Below are positions 39,896 to 64,000 of a stretch of 64,000 nucleotides of DNA, piece after piece. Within the stretch, counting starts at the first letter, position 1, and each line of letters starts with the position of its first letter. Source of the DNA: Actinomadura soli (lineage in GTDB: Bacteria; Actinomycetota; Actinomycetes; Streptosporangiales; Streptosporangiaceae); NCBI RefSeq assembly GCF_005889715.1, contig NZ_VCKW01000002.1:1-64000 (forward strand), in the 5' to 3' direction. Made by a program: the position numbers and the translations under genes. The notes beneath the pieces are model-generated. The model was not told where the DNA came from. It made no database searches and was given only the letters and a program-made list of their open reading frames with translations.

Positions 39896-39972
39896 GGCGG
39901 AGCCCTCCAAATGGGTCTGGTGGAATTTCCCGGCCTCGGGGCCGGGCGATGAGTGATGCGGCGGGCTGCGGG

Positions 39973-40536
39973 CTAGCGCACCCAGCCGGTGTAACTGCGC
40001 CCGGACTGGGGCTGCTGCGGCCGGGCGGCGGGACGGCCTCCGGCACCGGTCTCGAACGCGGCGGAGACGGCGCGGACCAGCCAGGCGTTGACCGAGATCC
40101 CCTGCGCGCCGGCCGCCTCCTCCACGCGCACCTTGAGGTGCTCGGGCAGCCGCAGGGTCATCCGCGCGGTGCCGCCCTCCTCACCCACCGGAGGCCCGGC
40201 CGGGGGCGGCCCGGCCGCAGGAGGCCCGGCCATCGGCGGCCCGGTCTCCCACGCGGCCTCCGCTCCGGCGTCGGCCGCGCTTCCCGGGTGCGGTTGCGGC
40301 GGCGTCACCACGAACGCCGGTTCGCCGCCGCGCAGCCGCACGTCGACCGACCCCGGCGCGAGCTCACCGGTGATCTCGTCCGCCGCCGCCGACAGCGCCT
40401 CCAGCAGGGCGAGCCGCGTGGCCGACTCCAGGACACCGGTGAGGCGCTCGGCCAGCGCGCGCGCGTCCGGCCCGCCCGCCTCGGCGGCGACGACGAGTTC
40501 GCGGCGGAGGTTCTCCACGTACGGCATCAGATCCAT
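39973..40536 (-). CDS. Ribbon-helix-helix (HicB/toxin-antitoxin type) regulator
   Basis: Protein of 187 residues. N-terminal helical part (PYVENLRRELVVAAEAGG, then DARALAERLTGVLESATRLA, LLEALSAAADEITGELAPG), a proline-rich linker of PPAGPP units at about 95-117, and a C-terminal ribbon-helix-helix at about 124-162 (ARMTLRLPEHLKVRVEEAAG, then ISVNAWLVRAVSAAFE). Such proteins are annotated as HicB-like antitoxins in actinomycetes. No HicA or other toxin partner is next to it. GACGTC dyads stand right before its start, so it likely represses itself and, through the shared transcript, the DUF4097 gene. Confidence 0.8.
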   Translation of the reverse strand: MDLMPYVENLRRELVVAAEAGGPDARALAERLTGVLESATRLALLEALSAAADEITGELAPGSVDVRLRGGEPAFVVTPPQPHPGSAADAGAEAAWETGPPMAGPPAAGPPPAGPPVGEEGGTARMTLRLPEHLKVRVEEAAGAQGISVNAWLVRAVSAAFETGAGGRPAARPQQPQSGRSYTGWVR

Positions 40537-40544
40537 GCCCCCAT

Positions 40545-40609
40545 CATGACGTCAGATCGACGTCATGTCAAGCGCCAAACTGACGTCACTCTGACGCGCA
40601 CGCGACGTC
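40545..40609. promoter_or_regulatory. Cluster of GACGTC palindromes, likely autoregulatory operator
   Basis: Immediately upstream of the RHH start (40536) there are GACGTC cores at 40548, 40559, 40582 and 40604. The first pair forms an inverted repeat CATGACGTC-N5-GACGTCATG (40545-40567). Ribbon-helix-helix dimers bind such short palindromes in arrays, so this is the likely site for self-repression. Assignment inferred from position and symmetry. Confidence 0.7.
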
Positions 40610-40746
40610 ACATCCGCGCACCCCATCCAAAAGGCCACCACTCCGTCACGATTGGGGACGCGAGCATGCCTCTAAGTAGTCGGTCGACGATGCACAGTGG
40701 CCACGTATTGTCGCCAGCGTTAACACCCATCACGGGGAGTGACGAA

Positions 40747-43521
40747 ATGGCGGAGAGCAGGGCCGCTACCGACGGCCGTGAAGTGATCGAGAATCCCGGC
40801 GCGGCAGGGCGGCCCGAGAGCACGCCCCCTCCCCCGCCGTCGCCGCTGATCGAGAGCGCGACCAGGGAGCTGCACAAGGCGACCCTGGTGCCGCTGCGCG
40901 TCCCGTCAGGGTCGGCAGGGCAGGCGATGGCCAAGCTGGGCTTTCTCCACCGGCTCGGGCTGCGCCCGGCAGAGGTCGAGAACGCGGTGCGGCGGCTCCG
41001 CGAGGCGGACGCGGGCACCGGGGCGGAAGCCGCGACGGCCCCCGTGCCGGACGAACCCGTGCCGGACGAACCCGTGCTGGAACTGCTGGCCTCGTTCGAG
41101 GAACCCGGCGTCCCGCCGCTGCTGCCGGCCGCGCAGGTGCTCGCCGGCGTTCCGGTCGAGGTGCTCCAGAGGTTCGGCCGGGCCGTAGTGGAGCTGCGTC
41201 GCGCCGACCTGGAGCGGTGCACCGCCGAGAGGGCCGGCGCGGACACGGCGACCGGCGCGGACACGGCGGCCGGCGCGGCGCGCAACGACCTGCACCGCGC
41301 CCTGCTCGCGGTCAAGGGGCTGGAGCTCGGCAGCGAGACGTCCCTGGTGGGCGCGCTGAACCTGGAGCGGCTGGAGATGACGCCCGCCGGGATCGAGCGC
41401 GGCGAGCTGGTCGGGACCGTCCCGCTGGCGCCGCTGGAGCAGACCGCGGTGACGCAGAAGGAGTGGTCCGTCCAGAAGAAGGAGTTCACCTCGATCGTCA
41501 CCGACTCGCTGGAGACGCTGAGCGAGACGGGGGTGACCGACAACACCGAGCTGTCCCAGTCGACGAACTCCCAGCAGGAGCACTCGAACCAGTTCAACAT
41601 CACCGGCACGGTCTCCGGTGGGATCCCGTTGATCTCCGGGTCGGTGACGTCGTCCTTCACCGGGCAGGGCAAGGAGTCGCAGTCGGCGGGCGAGAGCCGC
41701 AAGCACGCGACGGGCCTGACGCAGAAGGCGTCCTCCCGCGCCAAGCAGGAGCACAAGGTCACCATCGCGACGACCACGGTGACCGGGACGTCGCAGACCA
41801 CCACGCGGACGCTGCGCAATCCGCACGACACCAACCCGATCCGGGTCGACTACTACAGCATGATGCGCAAGTGGCGGGTGCGCCTGTACCGGCACGGGCT
41901 GCGCTCGACGTACGACATCGTCCTGCCGGAGCCCGCCGCGTCGATCCGGCGGTCCTACGTCGAGCTGGCCGCGCTGAAGGCCCGGCTGGGGCCGTTCGTG
42001 TTCAACCTCCCGCACAGCGACATCACGGCCGACATCCGCGCGGACGATCCGAAGCCGCCGGTGACGGACCCGCCCACCCCCGACCAGCCGCACTACCTGG
42101 TGCTCGCCGACCGGTACCACGCACCGGCGCCGCCTCCGCCGCCCGCGCCGACGAAGACCCTCACGCTGTCCGTGGACGGGCTGGACCTGGGGGAGGGCCG
42201 CCACAGCGGAAAGGTCACGGCGACCGTGCCGCCGGGCTACCAGGTCGCCTTGGTGGTGATGAACGCCAGTCTGGAGCACGCCGAGCATGCCGGACGGTTC
42301 ACCGTCATGGGCACCAACATCAGCTTCGAACCGTGGGGGCACCACAAGGACTACGCCGACGAGCACCTCTTCGCCCACGACGGCACCCCCTTCCTGGCAG
42401 GTGCCACGGAGACCCAGCCCATCCGGCTGCTGTTCGAGGACGTCGGCACGGCCACCATCGTGTTCACCGTCCGGTGCGTCCCCACCAAGGAGTCCATGGA
42501 GCAGTGGCGCGCGGACGTGTGGAACGTCCTGTACAACGCGGCGCAGACGCAGTACTTCGCCGAGCAGCAGGACATCGCGGGCAGGATCGCGGCGCTGGAG
42601 GAGCGGCTGACCGACGTCGACACCCTCACGCTGCGGCGCGAGGAGAACGACGAGGTGATGAAGGGCGTGCTGCGGTACCTGCTCGGCAACCGCTTCCCCA
42701 CGGTGCCGGGCGATGTCCTCACGGTGCTCGAGGAGGCCGGGGTGGACGTCGCGCACGGCACGGGCTTCGAGTCGGGCGCCATCAACCCCGACTCCATCGA
42801 GTGGACGCTGGTGCGGCAGTACGAGGAGATCGTCCGGTTCGTCAACCAGGCGATCGAGTGGGAGAACGTGGTGACGTTCCTCTACTCCTACTTCTGGGAC
42901 GTGCCCGCCAGCTGGGACTTCATCAGGCAGCTCGAACACCCCGACGCCACGCGGCAGGCGTTCCTGCGCGCGGGCAGCGCCCGGGTCGTGCTGACCGTCC
43001 GGCGGGGCTGGGAGACGCGGTGGGCGAACTTCGTCGACCGCGGCCTGCTCGACGACCCGCACGCGCCTGACCCGGAGTCGCCGTACTGGACCATCGCCCA
43101 GGAGATCGCCGCCTACGACGACCGCAACTATCCCGGGATCCCGGCCGCCAATCCCGGCAAGACGGCCACCCGGCTGCAGGACGCGGTGATCACCACGTCC
43201 CCGGTCAGCGTCGGCCCGAGCCCGGGCCCGGTCTCGATCCAGGTGGCGAGCAGCGCGGGCTTCCTGGCCGGGGCGCAGGTGGTGATCGACTCCGTCCGGG
43301 GGCTCGACCACGACCAGGAGGCCCAGACGATCGTCGACATCCCGGACGCGACCCACATCAGGGTGGGCCGGCTCCTCAAGGCGCACACGGGCACGGCGGC
43401 GTCCCCGTTCCAGGTCACCCAGCCCGGGGAGAAGGGCGAGCTGATCGCCGAGTGGAACGAGTACACGCCCACGTCCGGCATCGACATCACCGTCACCTAC
43501 AACCCGGCGGAGGGCGGCTGA
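40747..43521 (+). CDS. Large protein of unknown function, first gene of PLD set
   Basis: Protein of 924 residues that I do not recognise. From the N-terminus: a proline-rich stretch (PPPPPSP), a helical region with two internal repeats (VPDEP x2 and GADTA x2), a Ser/Thr/Gln-rich region at about 240-330 (LETLSETGVTDNTELSQSTN, FNITGTVSGGIPLISGSVTS), a conserved-looking NPHDTNPIRVDYYSMMRKWR segment, a proline linker, a beta-rich domain, then helical segments (IAGRIAALEERLTDVDTLTL, IVRFVNQAIEWENVVTFLYS), and a C-terminal beta domain. No signal peptide. GGGGAG stands before ATG 40747. The stop is 1 bp before the PLD start, so the two are one functional unit. Pore or structural role is possible but unproven. 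Confidence 0.75.
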   Translation: MAESRAATDGREVIENPGAAGRPESTPPPPPSPLIESATRELHKATLVPLRVPSGSAGQAMAKLGFLHRLGLRPAEVENAVRRLREADAGTGAEAATAPVPDEPVPDEPVLELLASFEEPGVPPLLPAAQVLAGVPVEVLQRFGRAVVELRRADLERCTAERAGADTATGADTAAGAARNDLHRALLAVKGLELGSETSLVGALNLERLEMTPAGIERGELVGTVPLAPLEQTAVTQKEWSVQKKEFTSIVTDSLETLSETGVTDNTELSQSTNSQQEHSNQFNITGTVSGGIPLISGSVTSSFTGQGKESQSAGESRKHATGLTQKASSRAKQEHKVTIATTTVTGTSQTTTRTLRNPHDTNPIRVDYYSMMRKWRVRLYRHGLRSTYDIVLPEPAASIRRSYVELAALKARLGPFVFNLPHSDITADIRADDPKPPVTDPPTPDQPHYLVLADRYHAPAPPPPPAPTKTLTLSVDGLDLGEGRHSGKVTATVPPGYQVALVVMNASLEHAEHAGRFTVMGTNISFEPWGHHKDYADEHLFAHDGTPFLAGATETQPIRLLFEDVGTATIVFTVRCVPTKESMEQWRADVWNVLYNAAQTQYFAEQQDIAGRIAALEERLTDVDTLTLRREENDEVMKGVLRYLLGNRFPTVPGDVLTVLEEAGVDVAHGTGFESGAINPDSIEWTLVRQYEEIVRFVNQAIEWENVVTFLYSYFWDVPASWDFIRQLEHPDATRQAFLRAGSARVVLTVRRGWETRWANFVDRGLLDDPHAPDPESPYWTIAQEIAAYDDRNYPGIPAANPGKTATRLQDAVITTSPVSVGPSPGPVSIQVASSAGFLAGAQVVIDSVRGLDHDQEAQTIVDIPDATHIRVGRLLKAHTGTAASPFQVTQPGEKGELIAEWNEYTPTSGIDITVTYNPAEGG

Positions 43522-43522
43522 C

Positions 43523-45289
43523 ATGCCGCCCAAACCACCTGGAGCATCGAAACCGTTCACCACCTGCCAGGAGGACGCGGCCGAAGTCGCCAAGCTGCCT
43601 CACAAGCCCTCCCCCGACGCGTCGGATCCGCGGGGCGCCGGAAAACCTGACCAGGTGCTGGCGAAGCTGCGCGGCTGGTACCCCGATGCGGCGCTGCCGA
43701 CGATGGGCAACGCCGTCGTCCCGTATATCTACGGCAGGTGCGCGTTCCACGACATGGGCACCGCGATCGCCACCGCGACGTCCGCCGACCACCGGATCTA
43801 CCTCCTCGGCTGGGGCGTCGACCCGGTGACGGTCATGCTGGAGGCGGCGGGCGGCTCCCCGGCGGTCAGGCTGCGCGACCTGCTGCAAAAGACAAAGGCC
43901 CAGATCCGGGGCGTGTTCTGGGACAACCCGGATGTCGCGAACGATCCGAAAATGAATCCGGCCGGCGGCAACAACGTCCCCATCACCGACTTCATCAACG
44001 GCCTGCCCAACGGCTTGGCGATCCTGGACCGGAAGCTCCCGTTCCTGCGGTACGGCGGCATTCCCGTCCTGCCGGCGGGCAGTGCTCATCACCAGAAGCT
44101 GCTCGTCGTGTACGGCGCGCTCGGCCTGATCGCGTTCACCGGCGGCATGGACGTCAACGGCAGCCGCGTCGGCGACGACCCGTACCACGACGTCCATTTC
44201 CGCGTCACCGGCCCGGCCGCGGCAGTGCTGCTGCGGGTCTTCCGGGAAAGGTGGCTCGACCATTCGGACACCCACCGGCTGGACGCCGCCAAGTTCGCGA
44301 TGCCGCGGGCGCGGGTGGAGGCCGACTTCGCGCTGGTCGCCACCGGACAGGCGCCCGCGCCCGTCCCGTCCGTCACTCTCGGACGCGGGTCGCGGGCACC
44401 CGGATCGTATGCGGTCGCCATCGGCCGCACCTACGCCGACCTGGGCAGGATGAACAGGTCGCAGGAGAGGTACGGGTTCGCGCCGAAAGGGGAGCGGACC
44501 GCCTGGGAACTGGTCAAGAAGGCGGTCGGCCAGGCGCGCCACTACATCTACATCGAGGACCAGTACCTGGTGAGCCGGCGGCTCAAGGCGCTGCTGGTGG
44601 ACCGCCTCCGCGATCCCCAGTTCAAGTTCCTGCTCATCCTCATGGAGAAATCGACCACCTTCGAGCACTACAAGGAGCTGCTCAAGAGGGAGAAGAAGAA
44701 GGACAAGGACGGCAATGTCATGAAGGACGAATACGGGAGGGACATAGAGGAGGTCTCCTTCCCGAACGAGTTTCCCTATCTCGTCGGAGCGCGCAACGAG
44801 TGGCGTACCGACTTCGCCGCGGCCGATCCCAGCGGGCGCAAATGGCGGATGTTCTCGCTGAAAGCGAGCCCGGACGATGAGCGCAAGAAATGGTGCGGGC
44901 CCTACGTCCACGCCAAGACGTGCCTCGTCGACGACGAGTTCGCCGTCATCGGCACCGTCAACGTCAACGACCGCGGCTACACCTTCGACAGCGAGATCGC
45001 CGCGGGCATCACCGACGACCTGATGGGCAGGATGGGCGGCCATCGTTTCGCCCGGGACCTGCGCGTGAACCTGTGGCACAAGCACCTGGCCGTCCCGCGC
45101 GCCCGGCTCGAATCCTGGGAGGAGGGCCTGAAGGTCTGGCGGAAGCCGCCCCCCGAGGCGATGGTCGTCGACGCCAGCGCGCTGGAGTACAGCGAGCTCC
45201 TCGGATCCAAGGGCCTGGTACGGGACGACCCCGGCGCGAACCGGCTGTGGACGGAGTCGATCGACCCCGACGCCGACCTGCTCCCCTGA
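43523..45289 (+). CDS. Phospholipase D-like enzyme with one altered HKD motif
   Basis: PLD-superfamily protein of 588 residues without signal peptide. First catalytic site: SAHHQKLLVVYGALGLIAFT then GGMDVNGSR; H190 and K192 are present but the Asp expected six positions further is Tyr197. Second site: YVHAKTCLVDDEFAVIGTVN with H463, K465 and D470 complete. Between them a charged insertion at about 385-410 (LKREKKKDKDGNVMKDEYG). Family members cleave phosphodiesters of lipids or nucleic acids through a histidine intermediate; the altered site may still act because the two His are kept. It begins 1 bp after the 924-residue protein. Confidence 0.85.
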   Translation: MPPKPPGASKPFTTCQEDAAEVAKLPHKPSPDASDPRGAGKPDQVLAKLRGWYPDAALPTMGNAVVPYIYGRCAFHDMGTAIATATSADHRIYLLGWGVDPVTVMLEAAGGSPAVRLRDLLQKTKAQIRGVFWDNPDVANDPKMNPAGGNNVPITDFINGLPNGLAILDRKLPFLRYGGIPVLPAGSAHHQKLLVVYGALGLIAFTGGMDVNGSRVGDDPYHDVHFRVTGPAAAVLLRVFRERWLDHSDTHRLDAAKFAMPRARVEADFALVATGQAPAPVPSVTLGRGSRAPGSYAVAIGRTYADLGRMNRSQERYGFAPKGERTAWELVKKAVGQARHYIYIEDQYLVSRRLKALLVDRLRDPQFKFLLILMEKSTTFEHYKELLKREKKKDKDGNVMKDEYGRDIEEVSFPNEFPYLVGARNEWRTDFAAADPSGRKWRMFSLKASPDDERKKWCGPYVHAKTCLVDDEFAVIGTVNVNDRGYTFDSEIAAGITDDLMGRMGGHRFARDLRVNLWHKHLAVPRARLESWEEGLKVWRKPPPEAMVVDASALEYSELLGSKGLVRDDPGANRLWTESIDPDADLLP

Positions 45290-45374
45290 CGCGGGCGTGG
45301 ACATTGGCCGCCAGATCTGATTACTATCCGTGATTACTTGATCATGATGAGTGACCCATGAGGGGGACGTGGCA

Positions 45375-45797
45375 ATGAGGTCTTTTGTGAACCGGGGTGT
45401 GCTCGCCGTGCCCGTCCTCGCGCTGGTTCTGGCCGGCGGCGCGCCTGCCGCGGCCACCGCGCAGGAGACCAGGACGAAGGCCGAGGTGAACCTGCTCAGG
45501 CTCACCTGTTACGAGACCGAGGACACCTCGGGCGGCGACGAGATCTATCTCCAGATCAACGGCAGGACCGTCTGGTCGACGGCGGACTCCATCAACTGCG
45601 ACCACGACCACCCGAACCACCGGCCGATCAACCGGAGGGCCAAGACCGGGGACCAGATCACGCTGTACGACAAGGACGGCGACCTGCCGGGCGACTCCGA
45701 CGACCACCTCGGCTCCGACGTGATCGAGGGCGACCGGGGAAGCCTGGTCTTCAACCTGGACGACGCGCTCTACACCGTGGACTACGGCCCGGCGTAG
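45375..45797 (+). CDS. Small secreted protein with C2-like calcium-loop pattern
   Basis: Secreted protein of 140 residues. Signal peptide MRSFVNRGVLAVPVLALVLA with AAATAQ as cleavage region, then a single small domain with TKAEVNLLRLTCYETEDTSG, DEIYLQINGRTVW, and the acidic loop YDKDGDLPGDSDDHLGSDVI. This D-x-D-x-D and DDxLG pattern resembles calcium loops of C2 domains. Cys pair (TCYETE and INCDHD) may form a disulfide. ATG 45375 follows AGGGGG. It comes after the PLD gene and may share its transcript. I cannot name it further. Confidence 0.65.
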   Translation: MRSFVNRGVLAVPVLALVLAGGAPAAATAQETRTKAEVNLLRLTCYETEDTSGGDEIYLQINGRTVWSTADSINCDHDHPNHRPINRRAKTGDQITLYDKDGDLPGDSDDHLGSDVIEGDRGSLVFNLDDALYTVDYGPA

Positions 45798-56081: not shown

Positions 56082-57059
56082 ATGGCGACTTATCATGCGG
56101 CTTGGTGGAATCTGGAGAATCTCTTCGACGAGGAGAACTCGCCGCGCCGCACCGAGAAGGTGGCGCGGGTGATCAAGAACAGCATCGCCGGGTGGACGCC
56201 CCGGCTCCGGGACCGGAAGGTCGCCCAGCTGGCGTCGGTCATCGCGCAGATGAACGACGGCGCCGGGCCGGACCTGCTCGGGGTGTGCGAGGTGGAGAAC
56301 CGGTTCGTGCTGGATCTGCTCGCCGGCGCCGTCCACGAGCGGCTTCCGCGGCGGCGGTATTCGATCGTCCACGCCGACACCAGCGATGCCCGCGGTATCG
56401 ACGTCGCGTTCCTCTACGACCCGGAGCTGCTGGAGGCCCCAGCGGACCAGGTGTTCTTCCATGTGGTGATGCGGCGCAACGCCACGCGGGAAATCGTTCA
56501 GGTCAACTTCCGCACCCGGCACGGCCGCACATGGGCGGTGTTCGGCAACCATTGGCCGTCCCGCAGCGGCGGCGCGTTCGAGTCCGCGGGCTACCGGCAC
56601 ATCGCCGCCGAAACGCTCGCGTTCTTCCATGAGCGGGTGCTGGAGGAGCACGGCGCCGACACGCCGGTGCTGGCGATGGGCGACTTCAACGACGAACCGT
56701 CCGACACCTCCCTCGTCACCCACGCCCTCAGCACCCGCCAGCGGCGGCGCGTGCTGGAGGCCGACACCCCGCGCCTGTGGAACCTGATGTGGCCGGCCAT
56801 CGGCGCCCCGGACGGCAGCTTCTATTTCAACAACGAACCGAATCTCCTCGACCAATTCCTGGTCAACGCCGGGATGGCCCGGCAGGAGGCGGCGATCCGC
56901 GCGGACGCCGGCACCGTCCGGATCCTGCGGTTCCCCGGTACGGCGGCCACCGGCCCCTATCCCCGTCCGATCCCTTTCGGCGGTATGGGCAAGAAAGTCA
57001 ACGAGGACGGATTCTCCGACCACTTCCCCATCGCCATGACCGTCACCGAATCAGCCTAA
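56082..57059 (+). CDS. Endonuclease/exonuclease/phosphatase (EEP) family protein
   Basis: EEP-fold protein of 325 residues, the fold of DNase I, exonuclease III and phosphodiesterases. Motifs: ATYHAAWWNLENLFDEEN (Asn), LLGVCEVENRFVLDLLAG (Glu), DARGIDVAFLYDP, AVFGNHWPSRSGG (His-Asn region), LAMGDFNDEPSDTSL (Asp, Asn) and FSDHFPIAMTVTE (Asp-His). The metal-ion and catalytic set is complete. No signal peptide or membrane segment. ATG 56082 follows GGGGGG by about six bases. It leads the block that ends at the window edge; substrate not known. Confidence 0.9.
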   Translation: MATYHAAWWNLENLFDEENSPRRTEKVARVIKNSIAGWTPRLRDRKVAQLASVIAQMNDGAGPDLLGVCEVENRFVLDLLAGAVHERLPRRRYSIVHADTSDARGIDVAFLYDPELLEAPADQVFFHVVMRRNATREIVQVNFRTRHGRTWAVFGNHWPSRSGGAFESAGYRHIAAETLAFFHERVLEEHGADTPVLAMGDFNDEPSDTSLVTHALSTRQRRRVLEADTPRLWNLMWPAIGAPDGSFYFNNEPNLLDQFLVNAGMARQEAAIRADAGTVRILRFPGTAATGPYPRPIPFGGMGKKVNEDGFSDHFPIAMTVTESA

Positions 57060-57157
57060 GAAGCGCCAAAGAAGGCTTAATAAGCCAGGCATTGCCGGGG
57101 TGACGTAATTCATACTGGCGGTTGGCGGTGACCCGCCGGTCGAGAGTGAGGGGGACC

Positions 57158-58423
57158 ATGTCCTCGACCGCCAGAATCGACGGTGCCCTCAGGACGCCGC
57201 TTCTGGGACCCGACGTCACGACGGTCTTCTCGGGCGGCTGGTCGGCGGCCTACGACTGGGTGGCCGACCGGGTCGTGGCCGCGGGCGCTCCCCGCCGCAT
57301 CCCGTTCCCGGCCCCGTTCGATCGCGACCTCGCCGGCGCGCTGCCGGGGCAGGGCGATTTCTCCGCCTTCCACTACGTCTTCAAGGACGACAAGTATCTG
57401 CGGCTTCGCGCGTCCGACGGCCTCCCGGACGCGGCGCCCGCCGACACCGCCCCGAACTGGGATCTGCCGCCGGGCTGGACGTCGGTGGACGCGGTGTTCG
57501 CCGGAGGAGGGGCCAAGAGCAGGTTCGCGTATTTCTTCCGCCGCGACGAGTACAGCCGGTTCGACTGGACGACGAACGCGAGGTCGCCGAACTACCCGAA
57601 GCTGTTCACCCCGAACTGGCACGCGACCGGCCCGTTCACGGCCGGCATCGACGGCGAGATTCCGGGCCTGCGCTCGTTCGGCACGAAGGCGTACCTGTTC
57701 CGCATCGCCAGGACGGTGGTCGACGACGACGGGCATCCGATCGCGGCGGGCCTGGGGAGGACCGTGTCCGCGCCGATCTACGCGCGCTACGACTACGACT
57801 CCGAGACGTTCGAGTTCACCATCACGGACCCGTTCGAGGTGGTGGCCCAATGGCCGGGGCTCCTGCCGATCCTCGACGCGGGGGCCGCCACCGACGTCGC
57901 CCTTGACTGGGTCGACCGGACGCTGGCGGCGCTGGGAGGCCCGGTGACGCCCGCCATCGCCACCGCCTGCCGGCACCATTTCGCGATGACGGGGACGATC
58001 GACACCACCGTGATCAGGGCCCGGCTGGGCGAGATCCGGACGCGGCTGAACGACATCCCGAACGCCTTCCGGTGGACGCCGGGCCTGCGGTTCGCGGCGC
58101 AGACGAGCCAGGGCTCCTTCACCGAGGTCGGTGACATCTTCTCGACGTTCCACGGCCCGAGCGGCAGGGCCGCCGCGCTGATCCACGAGGCCGTCCATTT
58201 CACGTTCGGTGCCGGGCCCGACGTCCCCGAGTGGTCCGGCGCCACGATCGCGGGTGTCTCGCACGGCATCGCGACCGATCCCGGCACCGGCGCGTCGCTG
58301 GGCGCCTACGCCGATCTGACCACCGCCGCCGCGCTGACCAATCCGAGCTCGTACGCCGCCTTCGCGCAGGAGGTCGCGAACGGCGAGGACACGCGGTTCG
58401 GGGCGGGACGCCCGCAGGAGTGA
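57158..58423 (+). CDS. Hemopexin-like repeats fused to M35/Lys-specific metallopeptidase
   Basis: Protein of 421 residues. Residues 20-195 carry hemopexin-like units: FHYVFKDDKYLRLRASDGLP, then VDAVFAGGGAKSRFAYFFRR, DEYSRFDW, and FGTKAYLFRIARTVVDDDG. The C-terminal domain is a zinc peptidase of the M35/asp-zincin kind with HEAVH at 343-347 in AALIHEAVHFTFGAG, and later GIATDPGTG and LTNPSSYAAFAQEV, the last a hallmark of the Lys-specific endopeptidase domain. No signal peptide. GAGGGGG precedes ATG 57158. It sits between the EEP and the DUF6603 genes. The combination is unusual in bacteria. Confidence 0.8.
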   Translation: MSSTARIDGALRTPLLGPDVTTVFSGGWSAAYDWVADRVVAAGAPRRIPFPAPFDRDLAGALPGQGDFSAFHYVFKDDKYLRLRASDGLPDAAPADTAPNWDLPPGWTSVDAVFAGGGAKSRFAYFFRRDEYSRFDWTTNARSPNYPKLFTPNWHATGPFTAGIDGEIPGLRSFGTKAYLFRIARTVVDDDGHPIAAGLGRTVSAPIYARYDYDSETFEFTITDPFEVVAQWPGLLPILDAGAATDVALDWVDRTLAALGGPVTPAIATACRHHFAMTGTIDTTVIRARLGEIRTRLNDIPNAFRWTPGLRFAAQTSQGSFTEVGDIFSTFHGPSGRAAALIHEAVHFTFGAGPDVPEWSGATIAGVSHGIATDPGTGASLGAYADLTTAAALTNPSSYAAFAQEVANGEDTRFGAGRPQE

Positions 58424-58459
58424 CCGCACGCCGCACCGGCGCCGGAGGAGGGCGCGATC

Positions 58460-61222
58460 ATGAATCCCAGGGAACTGCTCGATGCGGTGGCGGCGCTGCT
58501 GTGGCCGCTGGCGGAGAGTGCGGTCACCGACGCGGCCGGCCCGCTGGGGCTGTCGGACCTGGGGGTCGATCTCACCGCGCCGCCCGAACTGCAGGGGCGG
58601 CTGCTGCAGCCGGTGGACGCCGTCCCGGGCGAACGCGGCGGGCTCATGGCGTTCCTGCGGTCGCTGGTCGGCGACCTGCGGCCGGGTAAGCAGGTGCGGC
58701 TGCACGGGTGGAAGCGCTCGGACGGGCAGCGCGGCCTGGCCCTGGTCGCCAGGGACGGGGACGTGTGCGCCGCAGTCGCCGTCGTCCCCGGCGGCCCTCA
58801 ACTGGACGTCGTGGTCACGGGACGCCTCCGCGTGGCGCACGAGGACGGCCCGTGGGGGCTCGAGGTCCGGGCGAGCGCCTTCTCCGGCGTCTGGGATCTG
58901 ACCGTCGTGCCGGGCGCGCCTCCCGTGGTGCGCACCCCGGACGTGTCGGGTTCGGTGCGGGTCCTCCTGTTCCGTTCCGTACCCGTCCGGCTGGGCCCGC
59001 CCGGCCTGGCCGTCGACAAGATCGTCGCGCAGGTGGACGTCGACGTCGCCACGGCCGCGCCCCAGCTGAGCGTCGAGCTGGGCGGGTTCAGCGTGGCGGT
59101 AGTCCCCGACGACCTGGCCGGCCTGCTCGGCCCGCTCGTGACCGCTCCGGCCAGGCTGCAGATCGTCGCCGACCGTCCCGGCGGCCTGCGCTTCGCCGAT
59201 ACGGGCGCCACGGGAATCCAGCTCAGGTCCGGTGTCCGGCTCAGGCACGCGCCCGGCGGCGGCAGGGCGGCGGCCGGAGCGCTGCCGGGCGTGGACGTCC
59301 TCCAGCAGGGCATCGAGCTCCGCGTCGCGGGACAGGATTTGGTGCTCGGCGCGCGCGTCTCCGTCGCCGTCCGGCCGACGGGGCTGCCGCTGCGGGCGGG
59401 CGTGACGCGGATCGGGCTCGACCTGCCGATCGCGCTGTCCGGGGACCGGGTCGGCCCGCTCCCGGACCGGTGCTCGCTCGCCGGCCCGGACGGCCTGCAC
59501 GTCGACCTGGACGTGGGCCCGGTGAGCGGCGGCGGCGCCCTCCAGCGGACCGGGCCCGGCGCGTACGGCGGCGTCCTCGACCTGGACCTCGCGGCCATGT
59601 CGGTGAAGGCGGTCGGGCGGCTCCGCCCCCCGTCCGGGAACGCTCCAATGTCGTTCCTCCTGCTGCTGAACGCCACGTTCCCGCCACCGGGCATCCAGAT
59701 CGGCCTCGGTTTCGCCGTGGACGCGGTCGGCGGCATCGTCGGGATCGGCCACCGCGCGGACGCCGACGCGCTGCGCCGCATGGTCGCGGACGGGCACGCC
59801 GACCGGGTCCTGTTCCCCGACGATCCCGCCCGCCGGGCGGCGGAGATCATCGACGCGCTGGGCGCCGCGTTCCCGGAGGCGCGCGGCCGGTTCGTGGTCG
59901 GCCCGATGCTGCGGATCACGTGGAGCGGCGGGATCGTGTCGCTCGCCGCCGCGGTGATCCTCGACCTTCCGGCGCCGCCGCAGTTCCTGCTGCTGGGCCG
60001 GATGCTCGCCGTGCTGCCGCACGCGGAGGCGCCGATCGTCCATCTGCAGGCGGAGCTGTACGGGCGGGTCGACCCGTCGGCGCCGTCGGTGGAGCTGCTG
60101 GTGTCGCTGACCGGTTCCTGGATCGCCGGCGTGCCGGTCTCCGGCGATATCTACCTGCTGGTCCGGGGCGCGGGCGGAAGCGGCGGGGGCGAGTTCGTGC
60201 TGTCGGCGGGCGGGTTCCATCCGCGCTACGTCCGGCCGCCCGGGGTGCCGGAGCTGCGCCGGCTGAGCCTGGGGCTGGGCGGCGGGCTCGGGCTGCGCGC
60301 CGAGGCGTACTTCGCCGTCACGTCCAACGCGGTGATGTTCGGCGGGCAGGTGCGCCTGGACGCCACGATCGCGGGCTGCGGCGTCGAGGGCTGGCTGGGG
60401 CTCGACACGCTGTTCATCTTCGACCCGGTGTTCTCGTTCTCGGCCCGCGTGTTCGCCGGGGTCGCGGTGAAGGTGCTCGGGCAGCGGCTGGCCGGGATCG
60501 CCCTCGACTTCACCCTCGAAGGCCCCGCACCGTGGCACGCGTTCGGCACCGGCAGCATTTCGGTGCTGTTCGAGGACATCTCGCTCGACTTCGACGTGTC
60601 CTGGGGCTCCAAGGCGGCGGTGGAGCCGCCGGTCGATCCCGACCTGCCCGCGCGCAGGCTCGGCGAGGCGTTCGCCAAGCGCGAGGCGTGGTCGGCGCGG
60701 GCGCCCGTCCATGACCGGACGGGCCTGTGGCTGACCGCCGGGGCCAAGGCCAAGGTGGCGGACGGCGAACTGATCCACCCCGACTCGGTGCTGTGCGCCC
60801 GGCAGCCGGTGCTGCCGCTGAACGTCACCTTCGACCGGTTCCAGCGCATGCCGATCCCGCCGCAGCGGTGGCGGCCGTTCTTCGCGAGCCTCGGCGGCAC
60901 GCCGGTCGGGAACCCGAACCCGGTCACGGACCGGTTCGTCCCGGCGGAGTTCTTCACCATGACCGAGGACGAGCGGCTCGGCGGCGAGGCGTTCCGGGAG
61001 TTCGTCAGCGGGCTGGAGTTCTCCGCCGACCCGTCCGCCGCCGTGCTGGCCGAGCCGCGGCGGGCCGCCGACGGGTACGAGACCGGCTACCGTCCGCAAC
61101 GGCCGCCGCATCTGAGCCTCCAGCAGGCCGAGCTGATGGCCGAGGCGTTCGCGCGGCGGTGGGACGCCGCCGAGCGGGTGGAGCGGTGGCGGCGCGCCGA
61201 GACCCTGGTGAGGCTCGTATGA
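58460..61222 (+). CDS. DUF6603-type giant protein
   Basis: Protein of 920 residues that matches the DUF6603 pattern: the helical N-terminus (NPRELLDAVAALLWPLAESA), beta-rich arrays (VRLHGWKRSDGQRGLALVAR, VAVVPGGPQLDVVVTGRLRV), a large central part with MSFLLLLNATFPPPGIQIGL then GFAVDAVGGIVGIGHRADAD, ILDLPAPPQFLLLGRMLAVL, and the glycine-rich LSLGLGGGLGLRAEAYFAVT, FGTGSISVLFEDISLDFDVS. It could be a scaffold or fibre. No signal peptide. It overlaps the start of the next gene by ATGA, so both are made together. No function is known for the family that I can state. Confidence 0.75.
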   Translation: MNPRELLDAVAALLWPLAESAVTDAAGPLGLSDLGVDLTAPPELQGRLLQPVDAVPGERGGLMAFLRSLVGDLRPGKQVRLHGWKRSDGQRGLALVARDGDVCAAVAVVPGGPQLDVVVTGRLRVAHEDGPWGLEVRASAFSGVWDLTVVPGAPPVVRTPDVSGSVRVLLFRSVPVRLGPPGLAVDKIVAQVDVDVATAAPQLSVELGGFSVAVVPDDLAGLLGPLVTAPARLQIVADRPGGLRFADTGATGIQLRSGVRLRHAPGGGRAAAGALPGVDVLQQGIELRVAGQDLVLGARVSVAVRPTGLPLRAGVTRIGLDLPIALSGDRVGPLPDRCSLAGPDGLHVDLDVGPVSGGGALQRTGPGAYGGVLDLDLAAMSVKAVGRLRPPSGNAPMSFLLLLNATFPPPGIQIGLGFAVDAVGGIVGIGHRADADALRRMVADGHADRVLFPDDPARRAAEIIDALGAAFPEARGRFVVGPMLRITWSGGIVSLAAAVILDLPAPPQFLLLGRMLAVLPHAEAPIVHLQAELYGRVDPSAPSVELLVSLTGSWIAGVPVSGDIYLLVRGAGGSGGGEFVLSAGGFHPRYVRPPGVPELRRLSLGLGGGLGLRAEAYFAVTSNAVMFGGQVRLDATIAGCGVEGWLGLDTLFIFDPVFSFSARVFAGVAVKVLGQRLAGIALDFTLEGPAPWHAFGTGSISVLFEDISLDFDVSWGSKAAVEPPVDPDLPARRLGEAFAKREAWSARAPVHDRTGLWLTAGAKAKVADGELIHPDSVLCARQPVLPLNVTFDRFQRMPIPPQRWRPFFASLGGTPVGNPNPVTDRFVPAEFFTMTEDERLGGEAFREFVSGLEFSADPSAAVLAEPRRAADGYETGYRPQRPPHLSLQQAELMAEAFARRWDAAERVERWRRAETLVRLV

Positions 61223-64000
61223 CCGACCGCTGGTTCGCGTCGTCGGTCCGGGTCGGCGCGATCGCTTCCGCCGCCCCCGGACCGGATGGACGCGCGCAGG
61301 TGCGTCCGTCCATCACGCTGACCCGCACCACCCCCGAAGGCGGCGGCCGCGGCGAAGAGATCACCTTCCCGGCCCCCGAAGCCGCGCTCACCCTGCCATT
61401 GATCGGCCCGGGTGACGTGGTCGGGTTCGACCGGGGCCTGGTGTCGCGGCGGGAACCGCCGGACGGCTGCGTGAACGCGGCCACCAGCGAACTCGCGTGC
61501 GTGGAGTTCGCGCACGCCGACCTGCCGTGGCAGCTGTCGCCGCAGGGCGCGCCGCCATGGCTGGCCCTCGTCGTGCTGCGCGAGAGCGAGGGCGTGCCCA
61601 CCGACCGCAGCCCGCTGCCGGTGGTGACGATCCCGCCGCAGGCCCAGCCCGACCTGGCGAGCGCGGCGATGTGGGCGCACGTGGAGGCGCGCCTGACGGA
61701 CGACGACGGCCTGGAGGGGCGGATCCTCGCGGGCGTGCGGCGCAGGTCCGACGCCGTCATCGCCCGGCTGGTCTGCCCGCGTCGGCTGGAGGAGGACACC
61801 GCGTACGTCGCCTGCGTGGTCCCCGCGACGGCGGCGGGCCGCGAGGCAGGGCTGACCGGACGGCCGGCCGATCCGCGCCGGGCGGCGGAGCCCGCGTGGA
61901 CGGCGGGCGCCGCCCCGGTCGAGGTGCCCGTGTACCACTGGTGGCGGTTCCGCACCGGATCCGACGGGTCGTTCGAGATGCTCGCGCGGCGGCTGGTCGG
62001 CGTGGACCCGTCGTCCATCGAGGGTTTCGGCGTCCGGGCGGTCAACGTGCGGCGGCCGTGGCCGCACCGCGATCCGCCCGAGGGGACGCCGCCGTCCGTC
62101 ACTGCGCGGATCCAGGGCGCGCTGCGGATTCCGGGCTCCGAGGTGGCCGACGAGGTGTGGGATCCCGTCTCGCCCGCCCAGGAGACGTTCGTGGACGAGC
62201 TGCTCGGCGAGCTGAACGCTCCGGGACGCAGGTTCGACCCGGACCGTCCGCCCCCGGAGGGGGTCGGCGCGGTGACGCCGCCGCTGTACGGCAGCCGTTT
62301 CACCGGGCTGCGCCGCGCGGACGCCGCCGGCTGGCAGACGGCGTTGAACCTGCAGGTCAGGTACCGGGTCGCGGCGTCGCTCGGCGCCCGGTACGTCCAG
62401 CTGGAGCAGGAGTTCCTCATGGCGCGGGCCTGGGAGCAGGCCGGGCCGATCCGCGAGGCGGCGCGCCTGGTGGCGGTCGCGGAGCTGGCGGCCGAGAGCG
62501 GGCAGCGCGCCCAGGACAAGCATCTGGCGACGATGGACCAGGTCGCCTTCGCGTCGCTGTCCGCCCCGCTCGGCGAGAGCCTGCGGATCGAGCTCGGCTT
62601 CGAGCGGACGGGCGAGCCCCAGCCGCTCGGCGACGTCGTGGCCGAGACCGCGGTCCCAGGCGGCGCGTTCACCACGGCGTTCGCCCGGCTGACCCGTCCC
62701 GGCGGCGGGCTCGCCCGGCGCAGCGCGCGGGCGGCGCAGCAGCCCCCGCAGGAGGAGGCGGCGCTGGCGGCGGGCCTGGGCGGGATCCGGCTGCTCGGCC
62801 CGCCCGCCTCCTGCACCGAGGCCACCGGCGACGCGGGCGCGCTCGGCACCCGGCAGACCGACTCCGCGGGCGCCTCGGCCGCCGGGCGGCTGGCCATGCT
62901 CATGGACGGCGAGCTGTCCCAGTGCGAGGTCCGCAGCGACTACGCCGGGCACGCCGACTTCGCCGGCTTCGGCGGCGCGGTCAGCGCGCCGGACACCCCG
63001 AAGCTGAGCGAGCTGGCCCAGGCGGTCGCCGGCGAGACGGGCACGTCCGAGCGGACGGTCGTCTCCAGCGGCTGGCTGCGCGGGCTGCGCCGGACGGCCG
63101 ACTTCGTGTCCCTGGACACCCCGCAGGACATGGGCGGCGCCCTCGGCATGGGCGCCGCGACGCTCACCGACGCCATCCGCACGGGGATCGAGCCGGTGCC
63201 GCTGCAGCTCATGCGCGTCCAGGACACCGTCTCGGCGCCCGGGGTCCAGGACGCCACCGTCGCCGATCTCCGCCCGCTGCGGCCGATCATGGCGCATCCG
63301 TCGTTCGACGTCCCGATGGCGGTGGAGCTGTTCCGCCGCTGGCCGGAGTGGGGCCTTCCCGGCCTCGGCGGCCTGCCCGAGGACTCGGTCGTGCTGCTGG
63401 AGACCAACCCCGGCTTCGTGGAGGCGTTCCTGGTCGGGCTGAACGACGAGTTCAACCGGGAGCTGCGCTGGCGGGAGTACCCGACCGACGAGCGCGGGAC
63501 GGCCTTCGCCCGCTTCTGGTCGTCCCCGGAGCGGGGCATGCCGCCCGACATCGACGAGATCGCGCGCTGGCCGCTCGGGATCCCGCTCGGCGGGCACGAC
63601 CGGATGGGCGGCCGGTCGCTGCTGACGCTGCTCATCCGGGGCGAGGTGCTGCGCCGCTTCCCCGGGACGGTCATCTACGCCGTGCTCGCCACCGAGGACG
63701 GGACCGTCCCGCCGGAGGGCACGGGCTCCTGGTTCCCGCCCGCGTTCACGGTCCCGGCGGACGACTCGACGAACCTCTACGCGTTCGAGACGCCGACGCG
63801 CGAGCAGGTCGCCTCCGGTGGATGGCTGTTCGTCATCCGCGAGCCGATGCGCGGGACCAGGTTCGGCTTCGACGACGTCCCGCCGTTCGCCTCCCCGCCG
63901 CCGCTCGTCCACTGGTCCGATCTGACCTGGGCGGACGTGCCCGTCGACGGCCGCGGCTTCGTCGTGCCGCGAAGCGTCGCGGGCAGGCCGCCGACCCCCA
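61219..64000 (+). CDS. Giant protein of unknown function, partial at window end
   Basis: Open frame from ATG 61219 (ATGA overlap with DUF6603 stop) with no stop up to the window end, at least 927 codons. Segments include TDRWFASSVRVGAIASAAPG, then ITFPAPEAALTLPLIGPGDV, LPWQLSPQGAPPWLALVVLR, FTGLRRADAAGWQTALNLQV, YVQLEQEFLMARAWEQAGPI, VVLLETNPGFVEAFLVGLND, and REYPTDERGTAFARFWSS. The NPGFVEAFLVGLN ... REYPTDERG motif seems to recur in large bacterial proteins of unknown function. No membrane segment or signal. The protein continues beyond base 64000 and its C-terminus is unseen. Confidence 0.85.
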   Translation, partial: MTDRWFASSVRVGAIASAAPGPDGRAQVRPSITLTRTTPEGGGRGEEITFPAPEAALTLPLIGPGDVVGFDRGLVSRREPPDGCVNAATSELACVEFAHADLPWQLSPQGAPPWLALVVLRESEGVPTDRSPLPVVTIPPQAQPDLASAAMWAHVEARLTDDDGLEGRILAGVRRRSDAVIARLVCPRRLEEDTAYVACVVPATAAGREAGLTGRPADPRRAAEPAWTAGAAPVEVPVYHWWRFRTGSDGSFEMLARRLVGVDPSSIEGFGVRAVNVRRPWPHRDPPEGTPPSVTARIQGALRIPGSEVADEVWDPVSPAQETFVDELLGELNAPGRRFDPDRPPPEGVGAVTPPLYGSRFTGLRRADAAGWQTALNLQVRYRVAASLGARYVQLEQEFLMARAWEQAGPIREAARLVAVAELAAESGQRAQDKHLATMDQVAFASLSAPLGESLRIELGFERTGEPQPLGDVVAETAVPGGAFTTAFARLTRPGGGLARRSARAAQQPPQEEAALAAGLGGIRLLGPPASCTEATGDAGALGTRQTDSAGASAAGRLAMLMDGELSQCEVRSDYAGHADFAGFGGAVSAPDTPKLSELAQAVAGETGTSERTVVSSGWLRGLRRTADFVSLDTPQDMGGALGMGAATLTDAIRTGIEPVPLQLMRVQDTVSAPGVQDATVADLRPLRPIMAHPSFDVPMAVELFRRWPEWGLPGLGGLPEDSVVLLETNPGFVEAFLVGLNDEFNRELRWREYPTDERGTAFARFWSSPERGMPPDIDEIARWPLGIPLGGHDRMGGRSLLTLLIRGEVLRRFPGTVIYAVLATEDGTVPPEGTGSWFPPAFTVPADDSTNLYAFETPTREQVASGGWLFVIREPMRGTRFGFDDVPPFASPPPLVHWSDLTWADVPVDGRGFVVPRSVAGRPPTP

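Follow-up and report, generated by a model that had tools for sequence, protein, structure and literature searches.

Background

Extracellular contractile injection systems carry cargo that lacks a signal for the general secretory (Sec) pathway and is encoded beside a conserved particle operon. The umbrella (Umb) particles of Streptomyces are described, in passages of their report, as large actinobacterial multi-protein complexes with trypsin-fold and beta-propeller parts and variable toxic parts (PMC11062931). Passages on the Tc toxins describe three subunit types in a large complex with an exchangeable toxic part (PMC7861908), and those on nucleoside triphosphate (NTP)-dependent conflict systems describe exchangeable peptidases and nucleases joined by small shared domains (PMC7159879). 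Here we describe a gene block from Actinomadura soli that shares features with each of these. It lies at the right-hand end of the stretch of DNA analysed (the window, bases 1-64000 of an 82,918-bp contig) and centres on three large proteins: a DUF6603 protein, a 966-residue protein that we named NPG after its NPGFVEAF motif, and a third that we call GIANT.

The block is real and extends beyond the window, and its conserved unit is the trio DUF6603-NPG-GIANT. A preliminary description of the window had read the block as a large assembly, or an injected or released particle, in which two giant proteins carry two hydrolytic enzymes. An assembly or particle of that kind is compatible with our results, and the large proteins do belong together and recur with enzymes. 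The two enzymes themselves are best read as local additions. We found no paper on DUF6603, PF20248 or IPR046538 in the open-licence literature, most subscription papers being outside the scope of that search, and these genes are absent from the 12 passages listed for PMC12419801.

Results and Discussion

A conserved trio of genes

A scan of a genome collection with an NPG profile gave 204 relatives among 246 pattern matches; the 80 best were analysed together with up to 10 kb of flanking sequence. The ordered trio is present in 74 of these 80 loci: 67 have DUF6603, NPG, GIANT and the C-terminal part of GIANT, and seven have the first three. Two more have DUF6603 and NPG, and the remaining four hold other subsets. 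The preliminary description expected DUF6603 and NPG to recur together, and NPG follows DUF6603 in 76 of the loci; as far as can be seen the gene order is identical throughout. The median gap is 3 bp between DUF6603 and NPG (n=76) and 5 bp between NPG and GIANT (n=74), with wide scatter, and these figures are approximate because our own open reading frame (ORF) chooser makes crude gene calls and missed or mis-started some genes (NPG in L035 and L114, the hemopexin gene in L036 and L148). The C-terminal part of GIANT is fused to it in Streptomyces and in the window and is encoded separately in many other loci.

The trio occurs in soil actinobacteria, Bacteroidetes, myxobacteria, Chloroflexi and haloarchaea, including haloarchaeal plasmids. 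Relatives of NPG were found in 13 plasmid records; all seven that we opened (three haloarchaeal, three from Streptomyces and one from Rhizobium) hold relatives of DUF6603, NPG and GIANT in the core order, in fragments in L163 and L167. Within the window's genus a strong NPG match is present in 13 of 65 genomes, after two weak matches (G403 and G418) were dropped from the 15 genomes at E<=0.001. In a sample selected without regard to NPG, a Pfam search of 396 genomes from the phylum detected DUF6603 in 12, at 13 loci, of which this genome accounts for two. NPG, recognised by profile, adjoins DUF6603 at eight of the 13 (C222, C535, G193, G051, G288, G108, G326 and G344), or at six of 11 when the two loci of this genome are left out. 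GIANT is present at six of the 13, and the contig ends before it could appear in G326 and G344. With the ordered trio in 74 of 80 NPG loci, the genes co-occur far beyond chance.

One could suppose that these genes are an old cluster of tolerated neighbours whose products act separately. The cargo genes beside the trio do differ among relatives, and the cluster is known from its genes alone; however, that three core genes have kept their adjacency and order in both bacteria and archaea makes this explanation improbable.

Searches for a viral source of the trio all came back empty. Among viral contigs there were 134 NPG pattern matches, none of which was confirmed by alignment; phage records held no relative of DUF6603; and PHROGs gave zero matches for DUF6603, NPG and GIANT of the window or for the C-terminal part of GIANT from L069. 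A viral origin is therefore not supported. These same searches weigh against placing the trio in a contractile injection system, phage or tailocin, whether as a component or as cargo, and none of its three core proteins matched a known injection family. A phage-type sheath gene does occur in this and four others of the 13 trio genomes of the genus, but five is not a significant excess (p=0.10), and the only PF04984 sheath gene here lies on contig C371 (1973-2464) rather than on C222. Since the other eight trio genomes lack a sheath gene, a sheath is not required, and we consider this role highly improbable.

Other arrangements of DUF6603 were seen as well. A second type of operon (L019, L021 and L032) combines DUF6603 with a remote relative of NPG and a different large partner protein, and at L028:7164-11066 a gene for a LodA-like oxidase is divergent from a DUF6603 gene that has no close NPG. 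This genome also holds a second, divergent copy of the trio on contig C535 (L022/L023/L034), accompanied by a subtilase and a kelch-like protein; an ORF on the opposite strand of that contig, which looks RHS-repeat-like by eye, runs off its end.

A variable slot upstream of DUF6603

In 70 of 77 loci DUF6603 is preceded, at a distance of at most 300 bp, by the end of a gene on the same strand. These include housekeeping genes, and some directly upstream genes are ordinary neighbours such as those for a porin or an acyltransferase. The classes given here come from clusters and from Pfam matches of their representatives only. Representatives scored above the Pfam cut-off for S8 and M64 peptidases, PLD, patatin, tyrosinase, galactose-oxidase-like kelch and WD40 proteins, and for one trypsin-like protein (L102); the other trypsin-like and the PhoD-like proteins are below cut-off or unmatched and were classed by similarity. 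Across the 80 loci we count PhoD-like (11), WD40 (10), trypsin-like (10), M64 (7) and S8 (6) proteins, unknown types (5), PLD (2), hemopexin-zincin (2) and one each of galactose-oxidase-like protein, patatin and tyrosinase, where L099 is called trypsin-like from the shared domain described below, the M64 gene of L077 is the second one upstream and the hemopexin gene of L036 came from the genus search. Most of the upstream proteins are about 300-1100 residues long and are encoded by separate genes. In the window's genus, the neighbours of the trio are hemopexin-zincin, subtilisin-like, M64-like, PhoD-like or PLD-like proteins. Many of the cargoes belong to types of hydrolase or oxidase that in other settings work outside the producing cell or on membranes.

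On an NPG tree of 79 rows (FastTree, long branches flagged; rows shorter than 800 residues and L070, L078, G288, G326 and G344 excluded) the cargo class switches at least 26 times among labelled rows. When unlabelled rows are counted as a class there are 34 changes, against a mean of 56.4 in shuffled data (none of 200 shuffles as low) and a floor of 13. Cargo is therefore inherited locally and exchanged often.

A domain of about 130 residues, mostly C-terminal, is common to 17 proteins from 12 loci. Its carriers are trypsin-like proteins, one clear subtilase (L065) and, in two loci, stand-alone genes of 138 codons. It may be the docking domain of one cargo subset. A single docking domain for all cargoes was looked for and not found.

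Signal peptides and structure models

Signal peptides were scored by a hydropathy heuristic, with the pieces of split genes counted apart and 200 other genes of at least 200 residues from the same loci as control; a first control had been scored more permissively than the core, so the repeat scored both sets both ways. With one start for each gene, none of 290 core proteins has a signal peptide (0 of 78 DUF6603, 0 of 79 NPG, 0 of 78 GIANT and 0 of 55 C-terminal parts), compared with three of 82 upstream genes, two of which are porin neighbours, and 42 of the 200 controls. If any methionine within 60 residues may serve as the start, the counts are three for DUF6603, none for NPG, one for GIANT and none for the C-terminal part, with three of 82 upstream genes and 58 of 200 controls. 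By this heuristic, then, the block lacks signal peptides, as the preliminary description held.

Proteins that stay in the cytoplasm would suit an intracellular conflict or programmed-death complex, in which a scaffold keeps a peptidase, nuclease or phospholipase inactive and, following phage attack or stress, releases it against the producing cell. The hydrolases could act in the cytoplasm, and the presence of one small domain on different peptidase folds is reminiscent of the effector-associated domains and of the trypsin, subtilisin and nuclease operons described in passages of Kaur et al. (PMC7159879). A BTAD/NB-ARC regulator lies directly downstream of the trio in L051, and the hosts include multicellular actinobacteria. 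However, tyrosinase, M64, galactose-oxidase-like and WD40 cargoes would be unusual for abortive infection, and neighbour clustering, in which most neighbours were not annotated singly, showed no recurrent NTPase or sensor family. We rate a conflict complex as rather unlikely.

In its AlphaFold2 model, the DUF6603 protein (mean predicted local distance difference test score, pLDDT, 75.7) has long antiparallel strands, and residues 340-710 or so are mostly above 85. The alternation of hydrophobic and polar faces along these strands exceeds that in all 2000 shuffles. Foldseek matches are led by ApoB100 and include ushers, LptD and porin-like assemblies (E 2e-4 to 8e-4, query template-modelling (TM) score below 0.2). 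A second aligner gives porins Z scores of up to 14.1 at a root-mean-square deviation (rmsd) of 10.4 Å, the range being 6.9-14.0 Å among the 50 matches listed. Membership of the porins was rejected, since these high Z scores come with such large deviations and the heuristic sees no signal peptide; the resemblance is a hint of shape. Because the hosts include actinobacteria and haloarchaea, we regard DUF6603 as a large amphipathic beta-sheet, not a porin. In the viral library of Foldseek it has three matches at E<=0.001, one of them a putative tail fibre, with TM scores of at most 0.12, which we take as shared beta content.

Repeats of about 64 or 128 residues precede the DUF6603 domain in four proteins from Algoriphagus (L060, L076, L079 and L097; none of 300 shuffles reached the score in any of them). 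In the three other long DUF6603 proteins the number of shuffles reaching the score was 0 for L083, 2 for L100 and 163 for L086, each of 300; for L075 and G261 it was 141 and 245. Repeats in the DUF6603 protein of the window are not above shuffles (105 of 300).

Long amphipathic strands, a Foldseek list led by ApoB100 with ushers and LptD, and the repeats in Algoriphagus would all fit a lipid-enzyme platform inside the cell or in its envelope, on which DUF6603 provides a lipid-binding sheet or groove and the trio places enzymes at membranes for an ordinary function. The fold matches are weak, though, and a patchy spread through the genus together with repeated exchange of cargo is unlike a housekeeping function, so that such a platform appears distinctly unlikely.

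The NPG model (mean pLDDT 81.8) has strands at both ends and a mostly helical middle. The preliminary claim that both giants are beta-rich is thus borne out by the model of DUF6603, and NPG is mixed. Foldseek gives NPG no match at E<=0.001, and its best Z score of 5.2, to CopC-like domains over 87-89 residues, is below the level at which the tool is trusted. Profile searches of solved structures returned no usable relative: DUF6603 matched helical designs with its N-terminal end (best E 5e-4), and NPG, GIANT and the C-terminal part of GIANT had chance-level matches or none.

The locus in Actinomadura soli

All of the genes of the preliminary description are present (Table 1), with EEP and DUF6603 recognised by profiles above cut-off. 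The proposed ATGA coupling of the giants was confirmed, and the sequence downstream of the window completes NPG and adds GIANT, as expected of a block described as incomplete. Apart from DUF6603, the trio has no Pfam match: NPG and GIANT of the window gave zero families up to E=1, the in-window part of NPG gave zero matches in NCBIfam, and no core protein matched an NTPase.

Table 1. Genes of the block, numbered along the contig; the window ends at base 64000
Feature	Position	Strand	Remarks
EEP-superfamily enzyme (Exo_endo_phos_3)	56082..57059	+	PF19580, E=1e-46, 159.9 bits against a cut-off of 27; local cargo candidate
Hemopexin-propeller protein with HEAVH zincin-like part	57158..58423	+	ORF opens at 57122; local cargo in the variable slot
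DUF6603 protein (core 1)	58460..61222	+	PF20248, E=5e-94, 316 bits against a cut-off of 27
NPG protein (core 2), 966 residues	61219..64000 in the window; end 64119 on the contig	+	ATGA overlap with DUF6603
GIANT, 1947 residues	Start 64091 or 64112, end 69934		Outside the window; larger than NPG
M43 peptidase	70096-71226		Downstream of GIANT, outside the window

The likely start codon of the hemopexin-zincin gene is the ATG listed in Table 1, where a homologue begins. Its hemopexin part is supported by phmmer matches to vitronectin (3e-4) and MMP-12 (8e-4); PF00045 is weak in the window protein (E=0.024, 15 bits against a cut-off of 21.3) and clear in a 49%-identical homologue (9.4e-7, 29.1 bits). 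In the proposed hemopexin/asp-zincin fusion, the zincin (M35-like) half corresponds to the HEAVH motif alone, with no peptidase profile up to E=1. Photopexin provides a precedent for a bacterial hemopexin; no paper was found on hemopexin with Actinomadura.

The two enzymes are not fixed parts of the system. Three of the 65 genomes of the genus have the hemopexin-zincin protein, all among the 13 with strong NPG and each with the trio beside it (p=0.0065), and one further strong match (G655) emerged when the sample was widened to 394 genomes of the class. At L171:127-9929, a homologue of 49-51% identity lies beside giants of 1763 and 1042 residues without a family match, the first of which looks DUF6603-like by eye, a likeness that is not significant. 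Among the upstream genes compared, EEP occurs only in the window and in Actinomadura sp. KC06 (L035), one of the three genomes of the genus with the hemopexin-zincin protein. It looks like a loose passenger, because the further-upstream gene in Actinomadura litoris was called as an alcohol dehydrogenase and no EEP was seen there. Our best reading is that both are local cargo outside the core. The M43 peptidase was rejected as a core part and kept only as possible cargo because none was seen next to the trio of Actinomadura litoris (L148).

Elsewhere in the window, at 39949-45797, genes for a 1190-residue protein, a PLD-family protein and a 148-residue protein lie in tandem; the first has an Ntox22-like C-terminus at E=0.046, below cut-off. 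The slot upstream of DUF6603 is likewise occupied by PLD proteins at L055 and L057 and by a PLD-like protein at L160.

A proposed function

Our preferred reading, held tentatively and at somewhat less than even chances, is that the trio forms a scaffold made in the cytoplasm which, with an exchangeable enzyme encoded upstream, acts on other cells. The assembly, docking, membrane contact, release and targets that we infer would run as follows. DUF6603, NPG and GIANT would assemble into the scaffold in the cytoplasm, and the enzyme or beta-propeller protein from the gene directly upstream would join it as interchangeable cargo, with the domain of about 130 residues as a docking tag in one subset. 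DUF6603 would supply a large hydrophobic-faced beta-sheet for contact with lipids or membranes. The preassembled complex might then be released, followed by delivery to other cells or attack on them by contact, which is the most likely use because the cargoes are of outside- or membrane-acting kinds and score without Sec-type signals. In the window, the hemopexin-zincin protein would be the cargo and EEP, perhaps with the M43 peptidase, would be a further passenger. A more specific version, in which the trio is the shell or bridge of a new type of signal-less delivery particle of bacteria and archaea, touching lipids through DUF6603 and bringing about ten kinds of enzyme into or onto other cells, is doubtful, if still a serious possibility.

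Several observations weigh against a scaffold of this kind. A close NPG is absent from five of the 13 DUF6603 loci in the phylum sample: at G204, G246 and G261 DUF6603 is accompanied by a second, only remotely related partner set, and G206 and G362 lack a close NPG. In G655, which belongs to another family of the class, a 51%-identical hemopexin-zincin protein adjoins two other giants instead of this trio. No assigned cargo is present at 17 of the 80 NPG loci, and at a further seven a long N-terminal extension of DUF6603 stands without an assigned enzyme. The domain of about 130 residues was not found in WD40, PhoD-like, M64, PLD, EEP or hemopexin cargoes. When 150 upstream and 45 downstream genes were clustered, no neighbour family beyond the cargo classes recurred widely; no constant gene for immunity or release was therefore seen, such families not having been searched by name. 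A stretch of 19 residues hydrophobic enough for a membrane helix is present in 48 of 78 DUF6603 proteins, which we read as strands. At L080:7802-8911 a lamin-tail-domain protein encoded between DUF6603 and NPG has a type IX secretion (sorting) tail, so not all products of these operons are cytoplasmic. The structure searches gave no match to a delivery machine.

Comparison with known systems

In the passages on Umb particles the proteins have Sec or twin-arginine translocation (TAT) signals and the large protein has ALF repeats (PMC11062931). In contrast, the trio core scores without signals, NPG and GIANT of the window have no Pfam match, although degenerate repeats could escape detection, and the part that varies is encoded by its own gene upstream. 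According to passages on the Tc toxins, it is the C-terminus of TcC that is toxic, and it is nearly always smaller than 40 kDa (PMC7861908), whereas the cargoes of the trio are separate genes. Pfam, which includes models for Tc proteins, gave no match in NPG or GIANT of the window up to E=1, so that no domain of the TcA, TcB or TcC type was seen in them. Extracellular contractile injection systems are similar in their Sec-less cargo beside a conserved operon; they differ in view of the trio genomes without a sheath and the lack of PHROGs matches in the core.

The conflict systems are largely centred on NTPases in the passages that describe them (PMC7159879), in contrast to three giants without an NTPase match. 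The bridge-like or repeating beta-groove (RBG/AsmA) and TAM proteins have a long hydrophobic-faced beta-sheet, with repeats in some members (PMC7613979, PMC11014939), in which they resemble DUF6603; however, they are absent among the 50 matches listed by Foldseek and among those of the second aligner, and DUF6603 has no match to these families. On the features tested, none of umbrella particles, Tc toxins and conflict systems fits the trio. Should the trio indeed assemble with its neighbour, it would be a widespread modular enzyme carrier, distinct from the families of secretion systems, injection systems and toxin particles considered above. DUF6603 and two unnamed families of giant proteins would then gain a function, the signal-less M64 peptidases and tyrosinases in these operons would be accounted for, and a natural carrier that swaps its cargo would be available for study.

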